Source of the DNA: a virus
DNA: 54,634 nucleotides
Virus record (IMG/VR): IMGVR_UViG_3300018080_003388
Coordinates: 1 to 54,634 of that record
Strand: one strand, 5' to 3'
The notes below the pieces were generated by a model. It ran no database searches, was not told where the DNA came from, and saw only the letters and a list, made by a program, of their open reading frames with translations. Both the position numbers and the translations under genes were made by a program. Positions 4,434-45,355 of this stretch are shown piece after piece (within the stretch, counting starts at the first letter, position 1; each line of letters starts with the position of its first letter).

Positions 4434-4786
4434 TGTCTTTGAATCTCAACGCAGTTGAAGGTAAAGTTAGAGCAATAGGTGATGGCATACTAGTTACTCA
4501 TATGCATTTTGGGGAACAAGTAACCGCATCCGGACTAATTATTTCTGATGATGATGGAAAAACACGCGGAATTTACCCCAGATGGGGGTGTGTGTATGAC
4601 AAAGGCCCTAGGAACAATGAAGAATATCAAGTAGGTGACTGGGTTCTAGTAGAACACGGGAGATGGACCAGGAGCGTAAGCGTTAAAGATGGAGATTCTG
4701 TTCTAGAATGTCGTATGATTGACAAGGATGCTGTTTTGTTGTATACTGATGAAAAGCCTGAAGATGTTTATATAGGTAATGAGTAA
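4433..4786 (+). CDS. 31: GroES/gp31-like co-chaperonin
   Basis: 117 residues beginning MSLNLNAVEGKVRAIGDGIL. The order of elements matches Cpn10: a first strand (VRAIGDGILV), a mobile loop (residues about 25-45) with TASGLIIS resembling the GGIIL contact motif, a GCVYDKGP turn, VGDWVLVEHGRW, and a final strand ending KDAVLLYTDE. It should cap host GroEL and help fold phage proteins, as T4 gp31 does for the capsid protein. The ATG overlaps the previous stop by one base; an in-frame upstream ATG at 4373 lies inside the previous gene and is not credible. Confidence 0.8.
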   Translation: MSLNLNAVEGKVRAIGDGILVTHMHFGEQVTASGLIISDDDGKTRGIYPRWGCVYDKGPRNNEEYQVGDWVLVEHGRWTRSVSVKDGDSVLECRMIDKDAVLLYTDEKPEDVYIGNE

Positions 4787-4825
4787 TATAAACTAACAAC
4801 TAATGTTAGGTGATTATTAACATTT

Positions 4826-4857
4826 AAGGTTATATCTGTAACAGATATAACCTTTTT
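4826..4857 (+). terminator. Rho-independent terminator after co-chaperonin gene
   Basis: A perfect 12-bp stem (AGGTTATATCTG pairing with CAGATATAACCT), a 3-base loop and a T tract. It separates the co-chaperonin unit from the exonuclease gene. Confidence 0.85.
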
Positions 4858-4887
4858 AAACACAACAAGGCTCACTAGGAGAACAGA

Positions 4888-5436
4888 ATGAAAATCAACG
4901 GCACTATAGACTTGGAAACACTAGATACAAAACCTAGTGCTACTATATTATCGGTGGGATGTGTTAAATTTAATCCGTATGATACACAAAGCGAGCCTTA
5001 TGATGCTCTTTATATTAAAATATCTGTGGATGATCAGAATAAAATCCACAGAACTTATTCAGAAGATACTCTTGCATGGTGGTCCAAGCAAGACAAATCA
5101 ATAATGGAAGAAGCATTCGATCAAAGTCAATCACTGAGTTGCAACCAAGCTGCACAAGTGATATCTAAATGGTGTAATGGTGTGGATATACTATGGGGGC
5201 AAGGGTATGGGTTTGACTTTACTATCTTAGAAGACTTTTTCAAAGCAGTGAATCATCCCTGTCCTTGGAACTTTTGGCAACTTCGTGACAGTAGAACATT
5301 ATTCAAGCTACTAGAACAAGACCCTAGAAAAGAAATGCAGCAAAATCTTCATAATGCACTAGAAGATGCTTATTATCAATCAAAAGCTATTCAAGTAGCC
5401 TGTGAAAAACTAGAAATCACTAAAATTTCTGCTTAG
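4888..5436 (+). CDS. dexA: DexA-like 3'-5' exonuclease
   Basis: 182 residues of the DnaQ-like exonuclease superfamily, closest in layout to T4 DexA. Exo I is DLET (Asp8, Glu10) within IDLETLDTKPSATILSVG. Exo II lies around GQGYGFDFTILEDFF (about residues 105-120), and exo III is HNALEDAYYQ (about 157-166). T4 DexA is slightly longer (about 227 residues). It probably degrades single-stranded DNA or RNA ends during replication or host DNA recycling. The ribosome site AGGAGA precedes ATG, and the gene follows a terminator, so it begins a new unit even though no convincing promoter is seen. Confidence 0.8.
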   Translation: MKINGTIDLETLDTKPSATILSVGCVKFNPYDTQSEPYDALYIKISVDDQNKIHRTYSEDTLAWWSKQDKSIMEEAFDQSQSLSCNQAAQVISKWCNGVDILWGQGYGFDFTILEDFFKAVNHPCPWNFWQLRDSRTLFKLLEQDPRKEMQQNLHNALEDAYYQSKAIQVACEKLEITKISA

Positions 5437-5474: not shown

Positions 5475-6401
5475 GTGAAACAATTGTGGACAGAAAAATA
5501 TCGACCTAAAAAAGTTGATGAGTATGTATTTCGTGACGATGCACAAAAGAAACAAGTTATTCAGTGGATAGAAGAACGAACTATTCCTCACGTTTTGCTT
5601 AGTGGGAACGCAGGGACGGGTAAAACAACACTTGCCAAAGTCTTGATCAATGAACTTGAAGTAAACGAACTAGATTTTCTAGAAATAAACGCCAGTAGAA
5701 CTAATTCAGTTGATGATGTTCGTGATAGAATTGTTAATTTTGTACAAATGATACCATTTGGTAAGTTCAAGGTCGTACTTTTAGATGAGTGCGATTATTT
5801 ATCCTTGAATGGACAGGCTGCACTCAGAGGAGTCATGGAAGAGTATCATGATACTGCTCGTTTTATACTTACTTGTAACTATCCTAATAAAATAATACCA
5901 GCACTGCATTCTAGGTGTCAGGGATTTCATATCAATAAAATAGATTCAGTGGAATATACTGCTCGTGTAGCTCAGATATTGATAAATGAGCAAGTAAATT
6001 TTGACCTTGAAGTGTTGGATACTTATGTTAAAGTAGCTTACCCAGATCTTAGAAAATGCATAAACTTGCTTCAGCAAAATACTAATAAAAATACTCTTCT
6101 TATTCCGGATTCAGGAGATAAGAGCGAAAAAGACTGGCGCATTGACATGGTTGAACTATTTAAGTCAGGCAAGATCCATGATGCTAGAAAGCTTGTGTGT
6201 GAAAATGCTAGAAACGAAGAAATTGAAGAAATATATAGATGGTTGTATACTAATCATGAGTTGTTTGGCTACGATGATAATTCACGAGATCAAGCAATAC
6301 TATTGATTGCACAAGGTCTAGAAAAACATGCGCTAGTTGCAGACGCAGAAATAAATTTATCTGCTACACTTATAAGACTAGCTAGAAACTTGGAAAAATA
6401 A
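5475..6401 (+). CDS. 44: Sliding clamp loader subunit gp44 (AAA+ ATPase)
   Basis: 308 residues, close to T4 gp44. Residues 6-20 (TEKYRPKKVDEYVF) are the clamp-loader opening. Walker A is GNAGTGKT (44-51), Walker B is DECD (104-107), and the arginine-finger motif SRC is at 146-148. The C-terminal third is a helical collar domain. It opens and loads the gp45 clamp encoded at 23598 for the gp43 polymerase. Its usual partner gp62 is not recognised nearby. The start is GTG with AGGAG eight bases upstream. Confidence 0.93.
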   Translation: MKQLWTEKYRPKKVDEYVFRDDAQKKQVIQWIEERTIPHVLLSGNAGTGKTTLAKVLINELEVNELDFLEINASRTNSVDDVRDRIVNFVQMIPFGKFKVVLLDECDYLSLNGQAALRGVMEEYHDTARFILTCNYPNKIIPALHSRCQGFHINKIDSVEYTARVAQILINEQVNFDLEVLDTYVKVAYPDLRKCINLLQQNTNKNTLLIPDSGDKSEKDWRIDMVELFKSGKIHDARKLVCENARNEEIEEIYRWLYTNHELFGYDDNSRDQAILLIAQGLEKHALVADAEINLSATLIRLARNLEK

Positions 6402-6410
6402 AGGTGATAA

Positions 6411-6464
6411 ATGAATAATAACGATACAAAGCATGAGATGATCTATGACACATGTAGTTACTGA
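6411..6464 (+). CDS. Possible 17-residue leader peptide upstream of ferredoxin
   Basis: An ATG with a good AGGTG ribosome site 5 bases upstream opens a 17-codon frame ending in TGA at 6464, 20 bases inside the ferredoxin gene. The ferredoxin ATG itself has only a weak site, so translation of this short frame could deliver ribosomes to it. Whether the peptide has any role is unknown. Confidence 0.35.
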
Positions 6465-6792
6465 TAATTGCATTCGTTGTAAGCATATGGAATGTGTTAC
6501 AGTTTGCCCAGTTGATTGTTTTCATGAAGGTGAGAATATGTTGGTAATAGATCCGGATGAATGCATTGACTGTGGTGTTTGTGTTCCTGAGTGTCCTTAT
6601 GACGCTATATTTCCACATAGCTCACTAGATGAAGATGAATACCAGAAATGGCTGCAAATAAATAAAAAATACAGCAGTATATGGCCAGTCATTGATCAAG
6701 TTATAGAGCACAGAAAACCTCAAGACTCAGATGTTTGGGACGGTGTGGAAAACAAATATGAAAAATTCTTTTCAAATAAACCAGGAGAATGA
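6445..6792 (+). CDS. 7Fe ferredoxin (3Fe-4S/4Fe-4S), FdxA family
   Basis: 115 residues. Nine cysteines at 9, 12, 17, 21, 25, 40, 43, 46 and 50 follow the spacing of Azotobacter ferredoxin I shifted by one. By that family, Cys9, 17 and 50 bind the 3Fe-4S cluster and Cys21, 40, 43 and 46 bind the 4Fe-4S cluster. [17 protein letters not shown] and DPDECIDC are almost textbook. The C-terminal tail (WPVID...WDGV..K) is also the family tail. It is a low-potential electron carrier in the cytosol. The next gene starts 5 bases downstream of the stop and its ribosome site lies inside this gene, so the two are probably cotranslated. A host-derived auxiliary metabolic gene is likely. Confidence 0.9.
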
Positions 6793-6796
6793 ACCC

Positions 6797-7939
6797 GTGA
6801 AAAATCCTTTTGAAGATCAAAAAAAGTTCATGTCTGCGTGTGATCAGACAGTAGAATCATTTAATTTAAAGCAGTATGATATGTATACGTCTTTGGTAAC
6901 CGAAGAATATCAAGAGCTAATGAAAGCTATCAGTGATAGAAATCTTGTAGAGCAAGTTGATGCCTTGGTTGATATTCTAGTAGTATCAATGGGTTCCTTG
7001 ATTTCACTAGGAATAAATCCGCAAGAAGTTTGGGACGAAGTTATGTCTACTAATTTTGCCAAGATTGACGATGAAACCGGAAAAGTCAGAAAGCGCGAAG
7101 ACGGTAAAGTTCTAAAGCCTCAAGGGTGGACTCCTCCGGAGATTACACGATTTATAACCATGAACATGGTAAAAGAAGTTATAACACAAGCTCAAGACAA
7201 CACAGATCATGACAAAAAAGATGAACAAGAACCATTCACTGCGCGTTTAGTTAGTTACTCTAATCCTGTTTCAGATTTGGCTGAACAAGGCATCGATGAT
7301 CTACAAGAGCTTGTGGCATTTTGCGCTAGAGTTTCTAACCCCAGCAATCAAATGAACACAGAGACTAGTGAAAGATTGATAAATTACCTTATAAAACACG
7401 CACACTGGAGTCCTTTGGAAATGGTGAATGTTTGCTTGGAAATAGAAACTACCAGAGATATAGCACATCAGATTGTAAGGCATTGGTCATTTAGATTCCA
7501 AGAATTTAGTCAACGATATGCTAATCCTGCTGAACTAGGAAACCAGTTTGTGTTGTGTGAAACCAGACTACAAGATACCAAGAATAGGCAAAATTCTATA
7601 GAAATCAATTCAGATTCCATGAGTCATTTAGCTATACACAATAGATGGTTAGAAGAACAGCAAGACGTTATTTATCGTAGCAAAAAAGCCTATGAGTGGG
7701 CTATAAATGCAGGGATAGCCAAGGAACTAGCTAGAAAAGTATTACCTGAAGGTCTTACAAAGACTAGACTTTACATGAATGGTTCTCTGAGAGGCTGGAT
7801 ACACTATGTAGAGCTAAGAAGTGCAAACGGAACCCAGAAAGAACATATGGAAATAGCAAGATGTTGTGCACAAGCTATTTCAGAAGTGTTTCCTATGATA
7901 GACAACTATGCACATAAAGATGAACATAGTGCGAGCTAA
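6797..7939 (+). CDS. MazG-like pyrophosphohydrolase fused to ThyX
   Basis: 380 residues from the GTG at 6797, which has AGGAG nine bases upstream; longer in-frame starts lie inside the ferredoxin gene. Residues 1-115 form an all-alpha NTP pyrophosphohydrolase (MazG superfamily): metal-binding EEYQE (Glu36, 37, 40) and DALVD (Asp55, 59), then GKVRKREDGKVLKPQGWTPP. Residues 145-370 form flavin-dependent thymidylate synthase: HWSPLEMV, the ThyX signature RHWSFRFQEFSQR (228-240, Trp in place of the usual third-position Arg), and GLTKTRLYMNGSLRGWIHYVELR. A linker of about 30 residues joins them. The first domain could turn dUTP (or another dNTP) into a monophosphate and the second methylates dUMP to dTMP. 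Confidence 0.88.
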   Translation: MKNPFEDQKKFMSACDQTVESFNLKQYDMYTSLVTEEYQELMKAISDRNLVEQVDALVDILVVSMGSLISLGINPQEVWDEVMSTNFAKIDDETGKVRKREDGKVLKPQGWTPPEITRFITMNMVKEVITQAQDNTDHDKKDEQEPFTARLVSYSNPVSDLAEQGIDDLQELVAFCARVSNPSNQMNTETSERLINYLIKHAHWSPLEMVNVCLEIETTRDIAHQIVRHWSFRFQEFSQRYANPAELGNQFVLCETRLQDTKNRQNSIEINSDSMSHLAIHNRWLEEQQDVIYRSKKAYEWAINAGIAKELARKVLPEGLTKTRLYMNGSLRGWIHYVELRSANGTQKEHMEIARCCAQAISEVFPMIDNYAHKDEHSAS

Positions 7940-8159: not shown

Positions 8160-8870
8160 TCATTCATCACCGTATATTTGTAGAACTTCTTTTACGGCTT
8201 CGTGTCTTTCTATATCTTGATTATTGAACTTAACAATACTCAGTTTTGAGTAATTTTTAATTAGCAATTTATCAAGAAAGTCACGAAGTCCGTTGTCATA
8301 TTGCCTATCACTTTGATCTAGATCCCCAGTTACAGCCATTCTAGATCCTTGTCCTATTCTAGTAAGCAGCATTTTCATTTGATTAGGTGTAGTTAATTGA
8401 ACTTCGTCTGCTATTATAAAAGAATTTTTAAAAGTTCTTCCTCTCATATAAGCTAGTGGTGCTATTTCTATAACACCTTCTTTTAGCATGTGTTCTATTT
8501 CGTTGGAGTTAAAGTATTCACGGAATACATCAAAAATGGGTTTGGTCCACGGGGCCATTTTTTGTTCTAAAGTGCCTGGTAAAAAACCCAGTTCTTCATC
8601 AACACTCACTACTGGTCTAGTTATGATTATTTTGTTTATTATTCCTTGTTTGAATTTTTTTATAGCAGTAGTAACGGCTATTATAGTTTTTCCTGTACCG
8701 GCGGGTCCTATTGCAAATACTATAGGCATTGAATCATCTAGCAAGTTTAATAGATATTCTTCTTGATTTTTATTTTTTGGTAATATAGTTGGATCTTGTT
8801 TTTTGGTTTTATAGTTTGTTGTATTATCTGTGTTATTAACAGAATTACGACGATTCTTTTTTGCTCCCAT
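8160..8870 (-). CDS. phoH: PhoH-like P-loop ATPase
   Basis: 236 residues from an ATG preceded by GGAGG. Residues 1-30 are basic and low-complexity. The PhoH core follows: Walker A GPAGTGKT (55-62), RPVVSVDEELGFLPGTLEQKM (motif typical of PhoH), Walker B IIADE (Asp155, Glu156), and MAVTGDLDQSD. PhoH proteins are common in marine phages; they are ATPases of uncertain role, possibly in RNA metabolism. It is the only minus-strand gene in the first 38 kb and is transcribed convergently with its left neighbour and divergently from 8992. Extending the start upstream would read through the control region and is unlikely. Confidence 0.92.
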   Translation of the reverse strand: MGAKKNRRNSVNNTDNTTNYKTKKQDPTILPKNKNQEEYLLNLLDDSMPIVFAIGPAGTGKTIIAVTTAIKKFKQGIINKIIITRPVVSVDEELGFLPGTLEQKMAPWTKPIFDVFREYFNSNEIEHMLKEGVIEIAPLAYMRGRTFKNSFIIADEVQLTTPNQMKMLLTRIGQGSRMAVTGDLDQSDRQYDNGLRDFLDKLLIKNYSKLSIVKFNNQDIERHEAVKEVLQIYGDE

Positions 8871-8905
8871 CAAAACCTCCTTTGATGAATAATGAGATCT
8901 TATAA

Positions 8906-8913
8906 TATTTATT
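8906..8913 (-). promoter_or_regulatory. Possible late promoter for phoH (AATAAATA)
   Basis: On the minus strand AATAAATA lies 35 bases upstream of the phoH ATG. It fits the NATAAATA pattern of other late promoter candidates here. No good sigma70 pair is seen for this gene. Confidence 0.35.
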
Positions 8914-8957
8914 AGTAAATTAATTGCACTAAAATACAGATTTATCATTGATCTTTT

Positions 8958-8965
8958 GATAAATA
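8958..8965 (+). promoter_or_regulatory. Possible late promoter (GATAAATA)
   Basis: GATAAATA is 26 bases upstream of the ATG at 8992, in the divergent region with phoH. Confidence 0.4.
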
Positions 8966-8991
8966 AATTTATAACTACGGCTGGAAACAAT

Positions 8992-9543
8992 ATGCAAGAC
9001 GTATTAGACGTTTTAAAAAATCTAGAAAATATATTTGATAACAACACATCTTTTAATGTGCTCAAAGATTTTGAGAGAGTTATTGATGAACTAGACGTAT
9101 ACATCTATAAAAATTGGGAAGATGGTGAGCTTATTATCGGTCCTGATATAAAAAGACACTGGGTAAGTTGTTCTTTTATGTGGCCTCGTGACCGCATGCC
9201 AGATCCTCAAGGCGGTAAGCGACTGGTTGAATATGGGTGCAAAGTAAAGTATAAAAAAGACTTTATGATGGTTCCTAGAAAGATAGAAACTCCGGATGAT
9301 ATAAGACCAAATACCAAGAAAGGAAAACTAGATAGGAAACTTATTTGGATAGTAGAGATTAGTATGCCTAAGCAACTGATAGTAGACATCGCTAGTGAAA
9401 TAAAAGATGATGATTATTCAGGAGTAAGTGATGATCTTAGCATGACAGCAGAACCTCAATCCGCAGAAATTTCATCAATGCAAGGGTCTGGACCTGGTTC
9501 TGCTCCGGGTTCTGAACCTCCTTTGCCTGGAATGACACCTTAA
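8992..9543 (+). CDS. Conserved T4-like phage protein
   Basis: 183 residues from the ATG at 8992, which has GGAAA upstream; an in-frame TTG at 8956 would overlap the promoter region. The core contains IDELDVYIYKNWEDGELIIGP, then RHWVSCSFMWPRDRMPDPQGGKRL and a basic strand CKVKYKKDF. I have seen this pattern as a conserved protein of marine T4-like phages. The last 40 residues are Gly/Pro/Ser rich (GSGPGSAPGSEPPLPG), probably a flexible tail. Late-type promoter and position suggest a virion or assembly role; no enzyme motif is visible. Confidence 0.6.
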   Translation: MQDVLDVLKNLENIFDNNTSFNVLKDFERVIDELDVYIYKNWEDGELIIGPDIKRHWVSCSFMWPRDRMPDPQGGKRLVEYGCKVKYKKDFMMVPRKIETPDDIRPNTKKGKLDRKLIWIVEISMPKQLIVDIASEIKDDDYSGVSDDLSMTAEPQSAEISSMQGSGPGSAPGSEPPLPGMTP

Positions 9544-28959: not shown

Positions 28960-29106
28960 ATGTCCGGAAAAGGTTCAAGATACAGGCCAGTAAACAAGAA
29001 AAAATTTGATCAAGGTTGGGATAGAATTTTTGGCAACAAAAAACAAGATCCTGAAATCAAAGAAGAAAAACAAACAACTAACAAACTAAAGGTGAATTAT
29101 GACTGA
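28960..29106 (+). CDS. 48-residue conserved phage protein
   Basis: Starts MSGKGSRYRPVNKKKFDQGW and continues with DRIFGNKK and a charged tail. The pattern SGKGSRxRPxxxxxF...WDxIF marks a small protein conserved across many T4-like marine phages. GAGGG ribosome site 6 bases upstream. Its stop overlaps the start of the peroxiredoxin gene (ATG at 29099), so the two are coupled. Function unknown. Confidence 0.7.
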   Translation: MSGKGSRYRPVNKKKFDQGWDRIFGNKKQDPEIKEEKQTTNKLKVNYD

Positions 29107-29845
29107 ATTAAAAGAAGGTATGAGAGTTCCGTATGATGTAGTTATCAAGAATATCGAAGGTTCTGAGGTAGTTGAATACACAACTGAATCTATTTTCAAA
29201 GGTAATAAAGTGGTGGTATTTTCACTTCCTGGAGCATTTACGCCTACGTGTTCTTCTACTCATGTTCCTCGTTACGAGCATTTGTCTAATCATTTTTATA
29301 ACCTGGGAGTTGATGAAATTGTTTGTGTGTCAGTTAATGACATGTTTGTAATGGATGCTTGGAAGCAAGATCAACAATCATACAACATTGATTTTATGCC
29401 TGATGGAAACGGTGAGTTTACTGAAAAAATGGGAATGCTAGTAGACAAAAGTGATCTGGGTTTCGGCAATCGTTCCTGGAGATATTCTATGTATGTAGAA
29501 GACGGTATAATTAAAAAAATGTTTGTTGAACCTGAAGTAGAAGGTGATCCTTTTGAAGTTTCAGATGCAGATACAATGCTATCTTATCTAAAAGAGTTGA
29601 AAGGGGATACCACTGACTTCCCATCAGATGTGTTGATTATTACCCGTTCCGGTTGTCCTTATTGTGAACGCGCAAAAGAAATACTTATTGAAACATGTTA
29701 TGACTTTAACGAACTAGAAGTTAATAGAGACATTGCCGAAACGGGACTGCGAGCAGTTAGCGGAAAGTCTACAGTGCCTCAGATATTTATTGATAGTAAA
29801 TATATCGGAGGTCTTGATGAACTAGAAACACTGTTCAACAACTGA
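29099..29845 (+). CDS. Peroxiredoxin-glutaredoxin fusion
   Basis: 248 residues. Residues 1-165 are a Prx5-type peroxiredoxin with PGAFTPTCSSTHVPRY (peroxidatic Cys51). Residues 175-248 form glutaredoxin with CPYC (Cys186, Cys189) and STVPQIFIDSKYIGG. The order matches the hybrid enzyme known from Haemophilus, which reduces peroxides with glutathione. In the phage it may protect replication or keep thiol enzymes reduced during infection. A terminator follows. Confidence 0.92.
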   Translation: MTELKEGMRVPYDVVIKNIEGSEVVEYTTESIFKGNKVVVFSLPGAFTPTCSSTHVPRYEHLSNHFYNLGVDEIVCVSVNDMFVMDAWKQDQQSYNIDFMPDGNGEFTEKMGMLVDKSDLGFGNRSWRYSMYVEDGIIKKMFVEPEVEGDPFEVSDADTMLSYLKELKGDTTDFPSDVLIITRSGCPYCERAKEILIETCYDFNELEVNRDIAETGLRAVSGKSTVPQIFIDSKYIGGLDELETLFNN

Positions 29846-30679: not shown

Positions 30680-30736
30680 ATGATATTCGAAATAAGTCAC
30701 AAATATGTTACACAGACGGGAGGTGTTAATGTCTAA
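30680..30736 (+). CDS. Possible 18-residue leader peptide before queE
   Basis: ATG with AAGGGG upstream opens an 18-codon frame whose stop lies 8 bases inside queE. It has the same plan as the short frame before the ferredoxin gene. The queE ATG has its own GGGAGG site, so coupling is only a possibility. Confidence 0.3.
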   Translation: MIFEISHKYVTQTGGVNV

Positions 30737-31592
30737 CAAAAAGCTTAGATATTCTGAAATATTTAATTCAATTCAGGGAGAAGGTCTTCATGTGGGTACT
30801 CCTAGTGTGTTTGTGAGGAGCTTTGGGTGTAATTTTAGATGTCAGGGGTTTGGTATAGATGATTTTAAAGGTAAGACTAGGTATAATCCCGAAGTAAAAC
30901 ATCTAATAGATAGTGGTAAGCTGGATAGCATTCAAACCTTTCATGAACTTCCTATTCTATCAACAGGGTGTGATACATATGCTAGTATATATCCAGAATT
31001 TAAACACTACATGAAGCACGGTGATGTGGATCAAGTGGCTTCTGAGGTATTATCTGTGATTCCCGATGTTTCAAAAACACATACACATCTCATACTAACT
31101 GGAGGTGAGCCTATGCTGTGGCAAGATTTTTGGAAAGATTTTTTGGTTCATCCTAGTATAAAACAGTTCTCTGAAGTTACTATTGAAACTAATGGAACAC
31201 AAGATTTGAAAACAAAATTTCAGGATTTTTTGTCATCTAAAAGAAACTTTAACATAACGTGGTCAGTATCAACAAAGTTAAGCGTATCAGGGGAATCGTT
31301 CGAAGATACAGTGAAACCTGATGTTATTAAGTCTTACTTGGAAACAATGAAAAATGATGATAATTTTTATTTTAAATTTGTTGTATCTGATGAACAGGAT
31401 CTAAGAGAAATACAATCAGTGCTTCGGGAATATAATATAGGAGATCCTGTGGTTTATATAATGCCTGTAGGTAGCAGACATGAAGACTATTCTCGTAATG
31501 CCAAAAAAATTGCAGATCTAGCCATCAAGTATGGTTATAGATATTCGCCTAGATTGCACTGCGATATATTTGGAAATGCGTGGGGAACATAA
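30729..31592 (+). CDS. queE: QueE-like radical SAM 7-carboxy-7-deazaguanine synthase
   Basis: 287 residues from ATG at 30729 with GGGAGG upstream. FNSIQGEGLHVGTPSVFVR, then GCNFRC at 33-38, followed by GFG, so the usual CX3CX2C cluster motif lacks its third Cys. A third Cys in STGCDTY (Cys81) is the likely ligand, giving CX3CX42C. THLILTGGEPMLW is the SAM-binding segment and VTIETNG follows. The C terminus has YRYSPRLHCDIFGNAWGT. It should rearrange carboxy-tetrahydropterin into CDG. The phage type with the inserted segment is known to me from other T4-like phages. Confidence 0.87.
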   Translation: MSNKKLRYSEIFNSIQGEGLHVGTPSVFVRSFGCNFRCQGFGIDDFKGKTRYNPEVKHLIDSGKLDSIQTFHELPILSTGCDTYASIYPEFKHYMKHGDVDQVASEVLSVIPDVSKTHTHLILTGGEPMLWQDFWKDFLVHPSIKQFSEVTIETNGTQDLKTKFQDFLSSKRNFNITWSVSTKLSVSGESFEDTVKPDVIKSYLETMKNDDNFYFKFVVSDEQDLREIQSVLREYNIGDPVVYIMPVGSRHEDYSRNAKKIADLAIKYGYRYSPRLHCDIFGNAWGT

Positions 31593-34413: not shown

Positions 34414-34438
34414 CTTGCTATTGGATATTGCATATAAT
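34410..34438 (+). promoter_or_regulatory. Strong sigma70 promoter of the MoxR-VWA operon
   Basis: TTGACT, 17 bp, TATAAT, upstream of ATG 34469. The preceding stop TGA (34411-34413) is in the -35 box. Confidence 0.88.
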
Positions 34439-34468
34439 ATACTCTCAATCAACGAAACAGAGGTAAAT

Positions 34469-35554
34469 ATGTCTAAAATTTCTTCACGAGTTCTTAACCC
34501 TAGCCGTGCTAAAGTCTCTATCAATCATGCAATCAGCAAGCAACGTCCTGTGTTTCTATGGGGACCTCCTGGCATCGGTAAAAGTGACATCGTGCATCAG
34601 ATTGCCGAAGACATCAATGCTTATGTGATTGATGTTCGATTGAGTTTGTGGGATCCAACAGATATCAAAGGTATTCCTTACTTTGATAGCAATCAAAATA
34701 AGATGCAATGGGCACCGCCGTCTGAACTACCTGATCAAGTATTATCTGAGAAACACGATAGAATCATTCTATTTTTTGATGAAATGAACAGTGCTCCTCC
34801 TGCGGTAATGGCAGCCGCATATCAGTTGATCTTGAATCGACGAGTGGGTACATATGAGTTGCCTGATAATGTACAGATTATTGCTGCTGGTAACAGAGAG
34901 TCAGATAACGGAGTTAGTTATCGTATGCCGGCACCTTTATCCAATCGTTTTATTCATATTGAACTGGGTGTAAACTTTGATGACTGGTTTGATTGGGCTA
35001 CTAAATCTAGTATTCACCCTGATATCGTAGGCTTCCTTCAGTTTTCTAAGAAAGATCTTTTTGACTTTGATCCTAAATCTCCGTCTAGGAGTTTTGCTAC
35101 TCCTCGTACATGGGAGTTTGTTAGCGATCTTCTTGATGATGAACTAGATGAGTTGTCCACAACTGATCTAGTATCAGGAGCAATCGGAGAAGGTCTAGCT
35201 GTGAAGTTCATGTCACACCGAAAGCATGCTCAGATGCTTCCTAACCCTGAAGATGTACTAGAAGGAAAAGTAACTAAGCTCGATACATCAGAAGTTAGTG
35301 CTATGTATTCTCTAACAGTATCCATGTGTTATGAACTAAAACAACTAGAAGGAAAACATGCCAAGGACTTTGGTAAAAAAGTAAATAACTTTTTGAAGTT
35401 TTCAATGGATAATTTTGAAACAGAACTTGTAGTTCTCGGACTTCGACTGGCACTTACTCAATATGGTATCACAATTGATCCTGATGAAATCGAGTGCTTT
35501 GACGAGTTCTATGAACGATTCGGCAAGTATGTTCACGCTGCTCAACAGGGTTGA
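34469..35554 (+). CDS. MoxR-family AAA+ ATPase
   Basis: 361 residues from ATG 34469 with GAGGTAA upstream; a longer frame would cross the promoter. Walker A GPPGIGKS (32-39), Walker B LFFDEMN (Asp104, Glu105), AAGNRESD (sensor 1) and LSNRFIHIEL (arginine finger). The C-terminal part is helical. MoxR ATPases work with VWA-domain proteins to remodel or mature target complexes. The partner gene follows after 8 bases. In this phage the target is unknown. Confidence 0.88.
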   Translation: MSKISSRVLNPSRAKVSINHAISKQRPVFLWGPPGIGKSDIVHQIAEDINAYVIDVRLSLWDPTDIKGIPYFDSNQNKMQWAPPSELPDQVLSEKHDRIILFFDEMNSAPPAVMAAAYQLILNRRVGTYELPDNVQIIAAGNRESDNGVSYRMPAPLSNRFIHIELGVNFDDWFDWATKSSIHPDIVGFLQFSKKDLFDFDPKSPSRSFATPRTWEFVSDLLDDELDELSTTDLVSGAIGEGLAVKFMSHRKHAQMLPNPEDVLEGKVTKLDTSEVSAMYSLTVSMCYELKQLEGKHAKDFGKKVNNFLKFSMDNFETELVVLGLRLALTQYGITIDPDEIECFDEFYERFGKYVHAAQQG

Positions 35555-35562
35555 GGTAAAAA

Positions 35563-36777
35563 ATGACACAACAAGCTAAAACATGGGAACCTAAAGAAAT
35601 CCCTGAACATGAGTATAACGAAGCAAAAAAACAAGTAGAAGATAACATTGTGGTTGCACGTGTGGGCTTGTTGCTTCGTCATTCATTTTTCGGAAATATG
35701 GCAACTCGTCTTAATATCGAGAATGCAGACAGTTGGTGTCCTACTGCTGCCACAGATGGAAGAAATTTGTACTATAATACTGCATTTTTCCGAGAGATGA
35801 ATGTCTCTGAGATTGAATTTGTTATAGGTCATGAGATATTACACTGTGCTTTTGATCACATGACTAGAACTGAAAAACGAGACAAGCAACTATTCAATAT
35901 TGCATGTGACTATTTGGTTAATAATTGTTTGATAAAAAATAACATCGGATCTATTCCTAGCTTTATAGATTGCTATCATGATCAAAAATATGACGGATGG
36001 ACGGCAGAAGAAGTATATGATGATCTATTAAAGAATGCAGAAAAAGTAAAGATGCTAGCATCTTTGTTAGACGAGCACATGGATCTCGAGGACAATCAAG
36101 GAGATCAAAACAGACCCTCATACTCAGAAGAAGAAATTCAAAAAATAAAAGATGATATTCGAGAATCTATGATTTCTTCTGCTCAAAGTGCCAGCGGTGA
36201 TGTCCCGGTTGAAATTCAACGTCTGGTAAAAGATCTCACAGAACCTAAAATGGACTGGAGAGAAATAATCAGACAGCAAATACAAAGTACTGTAAAAAAT
36301 GATTATAGCTTTGTTAGACCTTCTAGGAAGTCTATGTCATCTGGTGTAGTGTTGCCGGGTATAATCAATGACACGGAGATTGATATATGTGTGTGTATTG
36401 ATACATCCGGTTCTATTAGAGATGAACAAATCAGAGATTTTTTGAGTGAAGTAAAAGGGATTACCAGTCAGTATCAGAATTATAAAATCAATCTTTGGTC
36501 TTTTGACACGCGAGTTCATAATCATCAAGAGTTTTCATCTTCGGATATCGCTGACATTGATGATTATGTACCGCACGGTGGCGGCGGAACAGATTTTAAT
36601 GTGAATTGGAAGTTCATGAAAGAAAAAGGCATAGTCCCTGAAAAGTTTATTATTTTCACAGATATGTATCCCTGGGGATCGTTCGGAGAAGAAGACTACT
36701 GTGATACGATATTTATCAATCACGGTCGCCCTGGGTTTGAAGCGCCTTTCGGTATAACTGTAGAATATAAAAATTGA
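35563..36777 (+). CDS. Metallopeptidase-like VWA protein (DUF2201 type)
   Basis: 404 residues. N-terminal domain (about 20-170): GHEILHCAFDH, that is HExxH at 90-94 with His99, plus ACDYLVN (Asp116), a zinc metallopeptidase-like fold. C-terminal VWA domain (about 270-404): a complete MIDAS set with DTSGS (280-284), GGTDF (Thr343) and FTDMYP (Asp367). Architecture and order match the DUF2201 partner of MoxR ATPases. Probably acts as the substrate-binding partner and may be a protease. Known bacterial counterparts remain functionally obscure. Confidence 0.85.
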   Translation: MTQQAKTWEPKEIPEHEYNEAKKQVEDNIVVARVGLLLRHSFFGNMATRLNIENADSWCPTAATDGRNLYYNTAFFREMNVSEIEFVIGHEILHCAFDHMTRTEKRDKQLFNIACDYLVNNCLIKNNIGSIPSFIDCYHDQKYDGWTAEEVYDDLLKNAEKVKMLASLLDEHMDLEDNQGDQNRPSYSEEEIQKIKDDIRESMISSAQSASGDVPVEIQRLVKDLTEPKMDWREIIRQQIQSTVKNDYSFVRPSRKSMSSGVVLPGIINDTEIDICVCIDTSGSIRDEQIRDFLSEVKGITSQYQNYKINLWSFDTRVHNHQEFSSSDIADIDDYVPHGGGGTDFNVNWKFMKEKGIVPEKFIIFTDMYPWGSFGEEDYCDTIFINHGRPGFEAPFGITVEYKN

Positions 36778-43215: not shown

Positions 43216-43632
43216 ATGAACAAACGAGTTCTGAGTATGTTGACCAAACTAGCAATTGAAAATCCCGGACTACAAAACAGATTCAAGCTCTCAGCAGGGG
43301 TAGTATATAAAAAGAATCTTATATCCACGGGTGTAAATTCTTATAAGTCTCATCCCATGATGAAAGGACCGGGATACAATCCCGAACAGATTTTTATGCA
43401 TGCTGAAGTGGATGCAATAAGAAATGCGCTGAGACTTATACCGCAACAAGAAATGGAAAAAACTGAACTGTATGTTGTAAGAGTTAGGCGTCCTTGCGGG
43501 AATACTAAAAAGTGGGTGTATGGGATGGCTAAGCCGTGTGCAGGTTGTATGATGACCATAGCTAGTTTCAATATATCCAAGATCTTTTGGACTACTGATG
43601 AACTAGAAATAGATAATAATTTTATTATATAG
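43216..43632 (+). CDS. Cytidine/deoxycytidylate deaminase-like protein
   Basis: 138 residues. HAEVDAIRNAL (His62, Glu64) and PCAGC (Cys108, Cys111) form the zinc site of the CDA/dCMP deaminase fold. KLAIENPGLQNRFKLSAGVVYKKNLISTGVNSYKSHPMM is the N-terminal substrate region. In T4 dCMP deaminase feeds dUMP to thymidylate synthase. Here the thymidylate synthase is ThyX at 6797, so a dUMP supply role is likely; a tRNA or RNA editing role is less likely. Confidence 0.8.
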   Translation: MNKRVLSMLTKLAIENPGLQNRFKLSAGVVYKKNLISTGVNSYKSHPMMKGPGYNPEQIFMHAEVDAIRNALRLIPQQEMEKTELYVVRVRRPCGNTKKWVYGMAKPCAGCMMTIASFNISKIFWTTDELEIDNNFII

Positions 43633-44926: not shown

Positions 44927-45355
44927 ATGTCAAAAATAACAGCAACTAGATATCATGATTTTAGCACAGGACATCGTGTATACGGACATGAATCCAAGTG
45001 TTCTCATTTACATGGGCATAACTATCGAATAACTTTTTTTGTAGAAGCGCAAGAACTGGATAATATCGGCAGAGTAATGGATTTTGGTGTAATAAAGACG
45101 CTGCTGTGTAACTGGCTAGAAGAAAATTGGGATCATAAATTCTTGATATGGGAAAAAGATCCTTGGTGCACACATCTACAAGATATTGATCCAGAAGGAA
45201 CGGTTATTGTAGATTTTAACCCCACTGCAGAAAACATGGGAGAATTTCTAGTAAATAAAATTGGACCCAAGCAGTTAAAAAATACCGGTGTTGTACTAAC
45301 AAAGGTTATCATTGAAGAAACTCGTAAATGTTCAGCAGAAGTTTGTGTTAGTTGA
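44927..45355 (+). CDS. queD: 6-carboxytetrahydropterin synthase (QueD)
   Basis: 142 residues. Zinc ligands His16, His29 and His31 (FSTGHR, LHGHNY) and probable catalytic Cys25 (KCSHLHGHN). RVMDFGVIK, ENWDHKFL (Asp69, His70), NPTAENMGEFL and VIIEET complete the family pattern. It converts the FolE product into carboxytetrahydropterin, the QueE substrate. QueC and DNA-inserting enzymes are not visible in this window. Ribosome site GAGG. Confidence 0.92.
   Translation: MSKITATRYHDFSTGHRVYGHESKCSHLHGHNYRITFFVEAQELDNIGRVMDFGVIKTLLCNWLEENWDHKFLIWEKDPWCTHLQDIDPEGTVIVDFNPTAENMGEFLVNKIGPKQLKNTGVVLTKVIIEETRKCSAEVCVS

Follow-up and report, generated by a model that had tools for sequence, protein, structure and literature searches.

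We analysed a virus record of 54,634 bases (IMGVR_UViG_3300018080_003388; the whole stretch is referred to below as the window), in which a gene encoding an FdxA-type 7Fe ferredoxin lies directly upstream of a gene fusing a MazG-like domain to a homologue of the thymidylate synthase ThyX. The reading that we favour, with about even confidence and on the strength of sequence comparison, is that the ferredoxin would act as a phage shuttle of the FdxA/Fpr type for low-potential steps, with the radical S-adenosylmethionine (SAM) enzyme QueE as its likeliest single sink, and that it would be a neighbour of ThyX within a conserved block rather than its dedicated electron donor. We favour it because ferredoxin genes of related phages are paired with genes for a reductase or for FolE and QueD, because the window itself has genes for FolE, QueD and a QueE-like protein, and because QueE needs a reductant. 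An earlier note on this DNA had interpreted the ferredoxin and the fusion protein as a self-contained module for deoxythymidine monophosphate (dTMP), with the ferredoxin feeding electrons to ThyX; that interpretation was partly supported.

The ferredoxin gene and its candidate electron partners

The following features of the window carry this part of the analysis:
6445..6792, + strand: FdxA-type 7Fe ferredoxin, from ATG 6445 to TGA 6790-6792, 115 residues
29973..30659, + strand: FolE (GTP cyclohydrolase I; PF01227, E 5.1e-38)
30705..31592, + strand: QueE-like radical SAM protein, candidate electron acceptor (five QueE models and PF04055, all below cut-off)
44927..45355, + strand: QueD-like 6-carboxytetrahydropterin synthase (phrog_2389, E 2e-51; TIGR03367, 76 bits, below the cut-off of 89.25)

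The gene at 6445-6792 encodes an FdxA-type 7Fe ferredoxin, for which a [3Fe-4S] cluster, a [4Fe-4S] cluster and a low potential are predicted. Its nine cysteines (residues 9, 12, 17, 21, 25, 40, 43, 46, and 50) show the spacing that we used to define FdxA, CxxCx4CxxxCxxxC plus CxxCxxCxxxC, and the protein exceeded the cut-off of the NCBIfam model FdxA_Protbact (NF045490; 145.8 bits, cut-off 135), confirming the nine-cysteine 7Fe assignment of the earlier note. Pfam identified Fer4 and a DUF3470 tail (PF11953, 43 bits vs a cut-off of 23.2), and the top matches in the PDB were ferredoxin I entries, presumably of Azotobacter origin. At least 597 relatives were found in IMG/VR. In an alignment of 173 distinct ferredoxins, which included the window copy and two bacterial-looking phage records, each of the nine cysteines was kept in 170 or more, with gaps counted as absence.

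In related phages, homologous ferredoxin genes are coupled to genes encoding a reductase or FolE, which counts against a ferredoxin dedicated to ThyX. Each neighbourhood scan covered the best 80 loci and the scan for reductase relatives 28 loci; the contigs are fragments, and absence throughout means absence from the contig. A reductase gene was followed directly by the ferredoxin gene on the same strand in three contigs representing two distinct phages (two of the contigs show no difference in the 10,690 bases compared). All three also carry ThyX, 6-8 kb from the ferredoxin, ruling out the reductase as a feature of ThyA phages only. The phage reductase is of the bacterial Fpr type: FAD_binding_6 and NAD_binding_1 domains and homology to solved Fpr proteins were found in relatives (L578, L558), and the L558 protein matched ferredoxin-NADP reductases in the PDB with a best E of 1.6e-57. 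No Fpr-type reductase was found in the window. On seven of 31 distinct reductase contigs, QueD lies no more than 1.3 kb from the reductase.

When a reductase-linked ferredoxin was used as the query, the best 80 loci contained gp44 in 27 cases, FolE in 10, the reductase in two and ThyX in one, on the stretches covered. Together with one whole contig, the FolE-ferredoxin neighbours made up 11 rows, or eight without duplicates (L565 and L622 belong to a single contig, L630 is identical to L633, and L612 shares 99.9% identity with L613). The two genes share a four-base ATGA overlap in six of these eight loci and are 9 and 771 bases apart in the remaining two, and QueD is located at most 4 kb downstream in six of the eight. 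Pfam confirmed ten selected FolE, PTPS, and reductase proteins. By comparison, none of FolE, QueD, ThyX, or this reductase occurred at 80 bacterial fdxA loci with flanks of up to 5 kb.

In the window, FolE adjoins the QueE-like gene, and QueD is encoded as well. The QueE-like protein matched five QueE models, including TIGR03963 (best E 6.2e-18, 65.3 bits), all below their curated cut-offs. According to the part of the source available, QueE needs a one-electron reductant, a role in which flavodoxin, FPR, and reduced nicotinamide adenine dinucleotide phosphate (NADPH) work in vitro, while the reductant that radical-SAM enzymes use in vivo is termed elusive (PMC11994313). Just upstream of FolE, the window also encodes a peroxiredoxin-glutaredoxin fusion protein (29099-29845).

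In the scheme that we propose, the ferredoxin would regain its electrons from NADPH through an Fpr-type reductase, which some relatives encode themselves and others presumably take from the host, and would pass low-potential electrons to redox enzymes of the infected cell. Radical-SAM enzymes would be the likeliest single sink, foremost among them the 7-deazaguanine pathway enzyme QueE, and the proximity to ThyX would follow from a conserved replication and nucleotide block with the order gp44, ferredoxin, ThyX or DHFR plus ThyA, and PhoH. We infer every electron-transfer step and every substrate in this scheme from homology and gene order. A bolder version, which we offer as tentative and somewhat doubtful, is that an NADPH-Fpr-FdxA wire of their own would serve large aquatic phages as the dedicated reductant of phage radical-SAM enzymes, mainly of a QueE that produces 7-deazaguanine for modified phage DNA; in the lineage of the window, a MazG-ThyX protein bearing a rewired flavin-site motif would be encoded in the same presumed transcription unit.

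As for the distribution of the ferredoxin, its nearest cellular counterparts were mostly alphaproteobacterial FdxA proteins, two of them from Pelagibacteraceae (best 80 matches). In an 89-row tree, which has few columns and weak resolution, two label changes separated the phage and bacterial rows. Matches were present in 7 of the 50,697 records of a phage collection, two being Acinetobacter phage MD-2021a, one Microcystis phage MaAM05, and the other four unannotated faecal records. The INPHARED records CAKLQF020000001.1 and MW495066.1 were rejected as phage carriers, since the surrounding annotation resembles a bacterial chromosome; the phage-labelled INPHARED record CAKLQH020000001.1 was also among the matches. 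At the sensitivity of that search, none of the 50,697 records was a convincing cultured phage carrying this ferredoxin. In four viral contigs (L624, L638, L646, L683), the ferredoxin adjoins a MutS-like gene (named by eye) as it does in the Acinetobacter record, so these contigs may be bacterial.

The gp44-PhoH block and the exchange of ThyX and ThyA

The boundaries of the block in the window are:
5475..6401, + strand: clamp-loader large subunit (gp44-like; phrog_168, E 1e-79), the conserved upstream neighbour and the anchor of our samples
8160..9104, - strand: PhoH, the conserved downstream boundary of the locus (PF02562, E 5.4e-71)

In relatives, the order of the block is MazG, an exonuclease, gp44, the ferredoxin, a thymidylate gene, PhoH on the opposite strand, and further shared genes. 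The gp44 sample was seeded with three sequences, namely those of the window, of L285 (ferredoxin without a synthase), and of L184 (ThyA without ferredoxin); the latter two were chosen for their state, and the proportions below are therefore not population frequencies. From 238 loci, 150 remained at 97% gp44 identity, and after leaving out 31 that were cut short, the 119 kept either spanned the whole gp44-PhoH interval or extended 5 kb or more downstream. Ferredoxin occurred with ThyX in 44 of these, with ThyA in 17, and without a synthase in 23; a single locus had ThyA without ferredoxin, 34 had neither, and none had ThyX without ferredoxin. Thus, ferredoxin accompanies 44/44 ThyX loci, 17/18 ThyA loci, and 23/57 loci without a synthase at that position, and the ferredoxin-ThyX pair, for which the earlier note had suggested a search in other phage genomes, proved widespread.

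Many ferredoxin loci that lack ThyX carry DHFR and ThyA in the same place, and Pfam confirmed one protein of each. The 62 synthase loci formed one group on the gp44 tree (support 82), within which the best tree implies eight replacements between ThyX and ThyA, two or more of them when starred branches alone are counted, and one loss of the ferredoxin. A comparison of independent pairs on this tree contained few informative pairs. The window sits on a long branch outside both large groups. ThyA with DHFR makes no use of ferredoxin; the retention of the ferredoxin beside this couple therefore weighs against a dedicated partnership with ThyX. Among the best 80 loci selected by ferredoxin, ThyX was on the stretch in 45, and five had no called anchor gene. 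Selecting by ThyX instead, ferredoxin was present in 33 of the best 80 and absent from 47, some of these stretches being short. As a separate observation, genes for 2-oxoglutarate-Fe(II) oxygenases belonging to five protein clusters were seen at the gp44-ferredoxin-ThyX block (L068, L080, L101, L064, L071), and in L101 the oxygenase gene stands beside ThyX without ferredoxin.

We also searched 35 long contigs in full, hand-picked for length and state rather than at random; the ferredoxin and QueE queries were single sequences, and distant homologues may be missed. Ferredoxin and ThyX were both present in 15, ferredoxin only in 8, ThyX only in 8, and neither in 4. The ferredoxin-only contigs carry ThyA, and ferredoxin was found with ThyA and DHFR, and no ThyX, on contigs of up to 357 kb; the ThyX-only contigs include ones of 269,730 and 199,328 bases. 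The joint gain and loss expected of a dedicated ferredoxin-ThyX module was not observed, since each gene occurs alone, though ThyX never does so in the complete gp44 loci. The PF00175 ferredoxin-reductase family was present on five of the 35 contigs, all with ferredoxin and ThyA. Several other enzymes failed to separate contigs with ferredoxin from those without: the ribonucleotide reductase subunit NrdB (12/35, with and without ferredoxin), radical-SAM proteins as a class (30/35, in both groups), and thioredoxin reductase-like proteins (8/35, one over the cut-off). Among the long contigs, G052 (the one containing L514) included, as many as 23 radical-SAM matches were counted on a single phage contig. 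Since several related contigs are longer than 200 kb, the window is probably a fragment of a larger genome; its G+C content is 35%, and no tRNA genes were detected in its 54,634 bases.

That reduced ferredoxin feeds the flavin adenine dinucleotide (FAD) of ThyX directly, so that ferredoxin and MazG-ThyX form a dTMP module, seems improbable to us. Such a role would agree with the constant presence of ferredoxin in the complete ThyX-type gp44 loci, with its position upstream of ThyX on the same strand in the loci listed for that comparison, with the abutting or overlapping of the two genes in L036, L044, L061, L077, L088, and L104, and with the tight coupling in the window. It is opposed by the survival of the ferredoxin when ThyX is replaced by ThyA and DHFR, by ThyX without detected ferredoxin on 8 of the 35 long contigs and in the 47 ThyX-selected loci mentioned above, and by the lack of any ferredoxin fused to ThyX, or to another of the sought proteins, in 598 loci. 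Moreover, in the sections available of the papers concerned, NADPH is given as the ThyX donor (PMC8316439, PMC9931769), and anaerobic FAD reduction of PBCV-1 ThyX by NADPH is described only when the substrate deoxyuridine monophosphate (dUMP) is present (PMC3498832). The earlier statement that the donor of ThyX is not settled was thus overstated for the assayed enzymes, and the hydride source is probably NADPH. Nothing surfaced in the literature on ferredoxin as a ThyX donor, on a MazG-ThyX fusion, or on a phage FdxA-Fpr pair, which is no proof of absence. Another possibility, which we consider unlikely, is that the ferredoxin replaces or boosts the host FdxA for general redox metabolism, with no main phage partner enzyme. 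The alphaproteobacterial FdxA relatives and the occurrence of the gene in several phage neighbourhoods fit this proposal, as does a report, available in part, that an fdxA deletion was unobtainable in Rhodobacter capsulatus (PMC10936413), but the reductase and FolE pairs, unseen at the 80 bacterial fdxA loci, suggest a phage-specific use. We think it very unlikely that the ferredoxin serves thymidylate or pterin supply with any synthase, the reductase running backwards to provide NADPH for ThyX or DHFR: ThyX, DHFR, ThyA, deoxycytidine monophosphate (dCMP) deaminase, and FolE are indeed its neighbours, and all five reductase genes of the long contigs are on ThyA contigs, yet reductase, ferredoxin, and ThyX occur together on three contigs (two distinct phages), 23 gp44 loci have ferredoxin without a synthase there, and the Fpr of heterotrophs normally runs from NADPH to ferredoxin.

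The shuttle with a QueE sink has its own difficulties. Radical-SAM genes were present on 11 of 12 contigs without ferredoxin vs 19 of 23 with it, and no reductase gene was present on the 15 long contigs that carry ferredoxin together with ThyX. FolE neighbours were a minority in the scan described above (10/80, beside 27 with gp44 and two with the reductase), and the ferredoxins concerned are not close to that of the window, being 50-53% identical when linked to FolE and 50-60% identical, over 80-105 residues, when linked to the reductase. Using the window QueE as a query, the only other ferredoxin locus with a match was L611, at a distance of 6 kb, in a search of loci that did not cover whole contigs. 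FolE and PTPS-like proteins could also act in folate or pterin chemistry. Furthermore, the absence of ferredoxin from 0/44 ThyX-type gp44 loci is what a ThyX partnership predicts, and the sole ferredoxin loss beside a synthase fell in a ThyA locus.

The MazG-ThyX fusion and the supply of dUMP

The fusion gene and its parts are:
6783..6788, + strand: AGGAGA, read directly within the ferredoxin gene, the presumed ribosome site for the fusion gene
6797..7939, + strand: MazG-ThyX fusion gene, GTG start, 380 residues
6797..7159, + strand: MazG-like domain, residues 1-121, with the acidic motif E36 E37 E40 E52 D55 D59 intact
7160..7237, + strand: linker, residues 122-147, delimited by the edges of the matches of MazG and ThyX relatives
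7238..7903, + strand: ThyX domain, residues 148-369, from profile and PDB matches
7478..7519, + strand: ThyX signature RHWSFRFQEFSQRY, in which W230 and R233 deviate from RHRSF[A/S]FQEFSQRY
43216..43632, + strand: dCMP/cytidine deaminase-like protein (PF00383, E 1.2e-9) with HAE and PCxxC zinc motifs

The tight coupling, the GTG start, and the ribosome site within the ferredoxin gene were all as the earlier note described, with a spacing of four bases, not five, between the ferredoxin stop and the GTG. The start at 6797 is backed by MazG homologues, which begin with (T)NPFxD and align from residue 3, leaving a longer frame from ATG 6731 unsupported. Both domain identities given in that note were confirmed. 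Pfam placed PRA-PH/MazG over residues 17-84 (PF01503, 43.2 bits vs a cut-off of 21.3), and the N-terminal domain has both the profile match and the EExxE...ExxDxxxD residues that define MazG; E36, E37, E40, D55, and D59 were kept in 150/150 relatives, while position 52 was E or D in 145/150. Thy1 (PF02511) covers residues 168-366 with 135.6 bits (cut-off 24.8), and the TIGR02170 thyX model was passed with 141.6 bits (cut-off 87.9). Matches to MazG relatives mostly stop near residues 115-129 of the fusion, and those to ThyX relatives mostly start near residues 140-150. The closest solved relatives of the ThyX domain are PDB 2cfa and 4fzb (E about 1e-53), which we take to be PBCV-1 ThyX.

The ThyX signature of the window reads RHW..R, vs RHR..[A/S] in relatives, and so lacks the arginine triplet of the motif that we know as RHRxxS. 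Position 230 was R in 129/129 distinct relatives, with A or S at 233, and RHR was found in 7/7 ThyX sequences of annotated phage records (six cultured, and L602, an uncultured record); neither W230 nor R233 occurred in any of the 129 distinct and seven annotated sequences examined. In the cultured Rhizobium phage RHph_N3_13 (L604), the end of thyX and a glutaredoxin gene overlap. The third arginine presumably sits in the FAD-binding motif. Because it is W230 here, we name the gene a ThyX homologue without assuming catalysis, and the catalytic activity of the fused domain is uncertain from its sequence. An assembly error is possible, although two independent base changes would have to fall in a stretch of about 12 bases.

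Among 598 loci, which overlap in part and include 220 with ThyX, no second MazG-ThyX fusion was found, and no match covered 80% of the fusion protein in the 1,289 phage records with matches. The fusion is, so far in this lineage only, a joining of two enzymes that are separate in relatives. A separate MazG gene lies between the conserved gene C6 and gp44 in 99 of the 108 gp44 loci with the upstream side covered, and the window has no MazG gene at that position. The fused MazG has its top relatives in other phages (59.7% identity, 168 bits); compared with the syntenic MazG, it shows 61.0% identity and 161 bits. As the syntenic relatives score nearly as high, relocation of the local MazG is indistinguishable from import. 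One MazG/ThyX alignment was used for motif reading only, its stand-alone MazG rows being misplaced over ThyX columns. Elsewhere, at 4485-5379, L564 (G047) carries a ferredoxin followed by a stand-alone MazG gene, with no gp44 on the 10 kb stretch.

Regarding substrate supply, the deaminase gene that the earlier note located at 43216 is present, and no NCBIfam model matched it. A dCMP deaminase gene often stands beside the synthase in relatives, and MazG genes also belong to the block in many. The fused MazG may supply deoxynucleoside monophosphates, either dCMP for the deaminase or dUMP. Since the cyanophage MazG favours dGTP and dCTP and hydrolyses dUTP with a higher Km, according to the accessible portion of that study (PMC6850273), a route from dCTP through dCMP (MazG) and dUMP (deaminase) to dTMP (ThyX) would be at least as plausible as the direct formation of dUMP from dUTP that had been proposed. 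At 34415-36777, the window further encodes an AAA ATPase and, after it, a DUF2201 metallopeptidase/VWA protein.

Comparison with known systems

With its nine-cysteine 7Fe pattern and DUF3470 tail, the ferredoxin resembles Azotobacter vinelandii ferredoxin I and the bacterial FdxA that works with Fpr, and the reductase of the relatives matches solved ferredoxin-NADP reductases, including PDB 1a8p, presumably the Azotobacter reductase. In contrast to bacterial FdxA, it is phage-encoded, and in relatives its gene is paired or overlaps with Fpr or FolE genes, an arrangement found at none of the 80 fdxA loci. Among phage-encoded ferredoxins, cyanophage PetF is of the plant-type 2Fe class. Compared with PBCV-1 ThyX (2cfa, 4fzb), the ThyX of the window is fused to MazG and carries W230 and R233 in its signature. 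Of the gp44 proteins in the phage collection, the nearest (57% identity) belongs to the PA5oct-type jumbo phages of the Arenbergviridae, whose region likewise contains gp44, PhoH, MazG, and dCMP deaminase, whereas neither ferredoxin nor ThyX is annotated between gp44 and PhoH. The Nitrospirota-virus ferredoxin is likewise a phage-encoded auxiliary metabolic gene; in the available part of that report it is host-like, of the 4Fe-S type, and linked by its authors to the reductive tricarboxylic acid cycle (PMC7678222), unlike the 7Fe protein in a replication and nucleotide block described here. The MazG of cyanophage S-PM2 is also a phage MazG-like pyrophosphohydrolase, described as stand-alone in the text at hand (PMC6850273), in contrast to the fused form of the window.

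A ferredoxin gene coupled to a reductase gene or overlapping FolE points to a compact candidate redox chain, one that could be reconstituted from purified components. Repeated swaps between ThyX and ThyA beside an unchanged ferredoxin provide a natural control and caution against taking adjacency alone as proof of partnership, and the fusion with its altered signature provides a defined test of the role of that arginine in ThyX. Set against these known systems, the parts are familiar and their arrangement is uncommon; the idea of a dedicated donor is weakened, and the phage FdxA/Fpr couple tied to FolE and QueD is the better lead.

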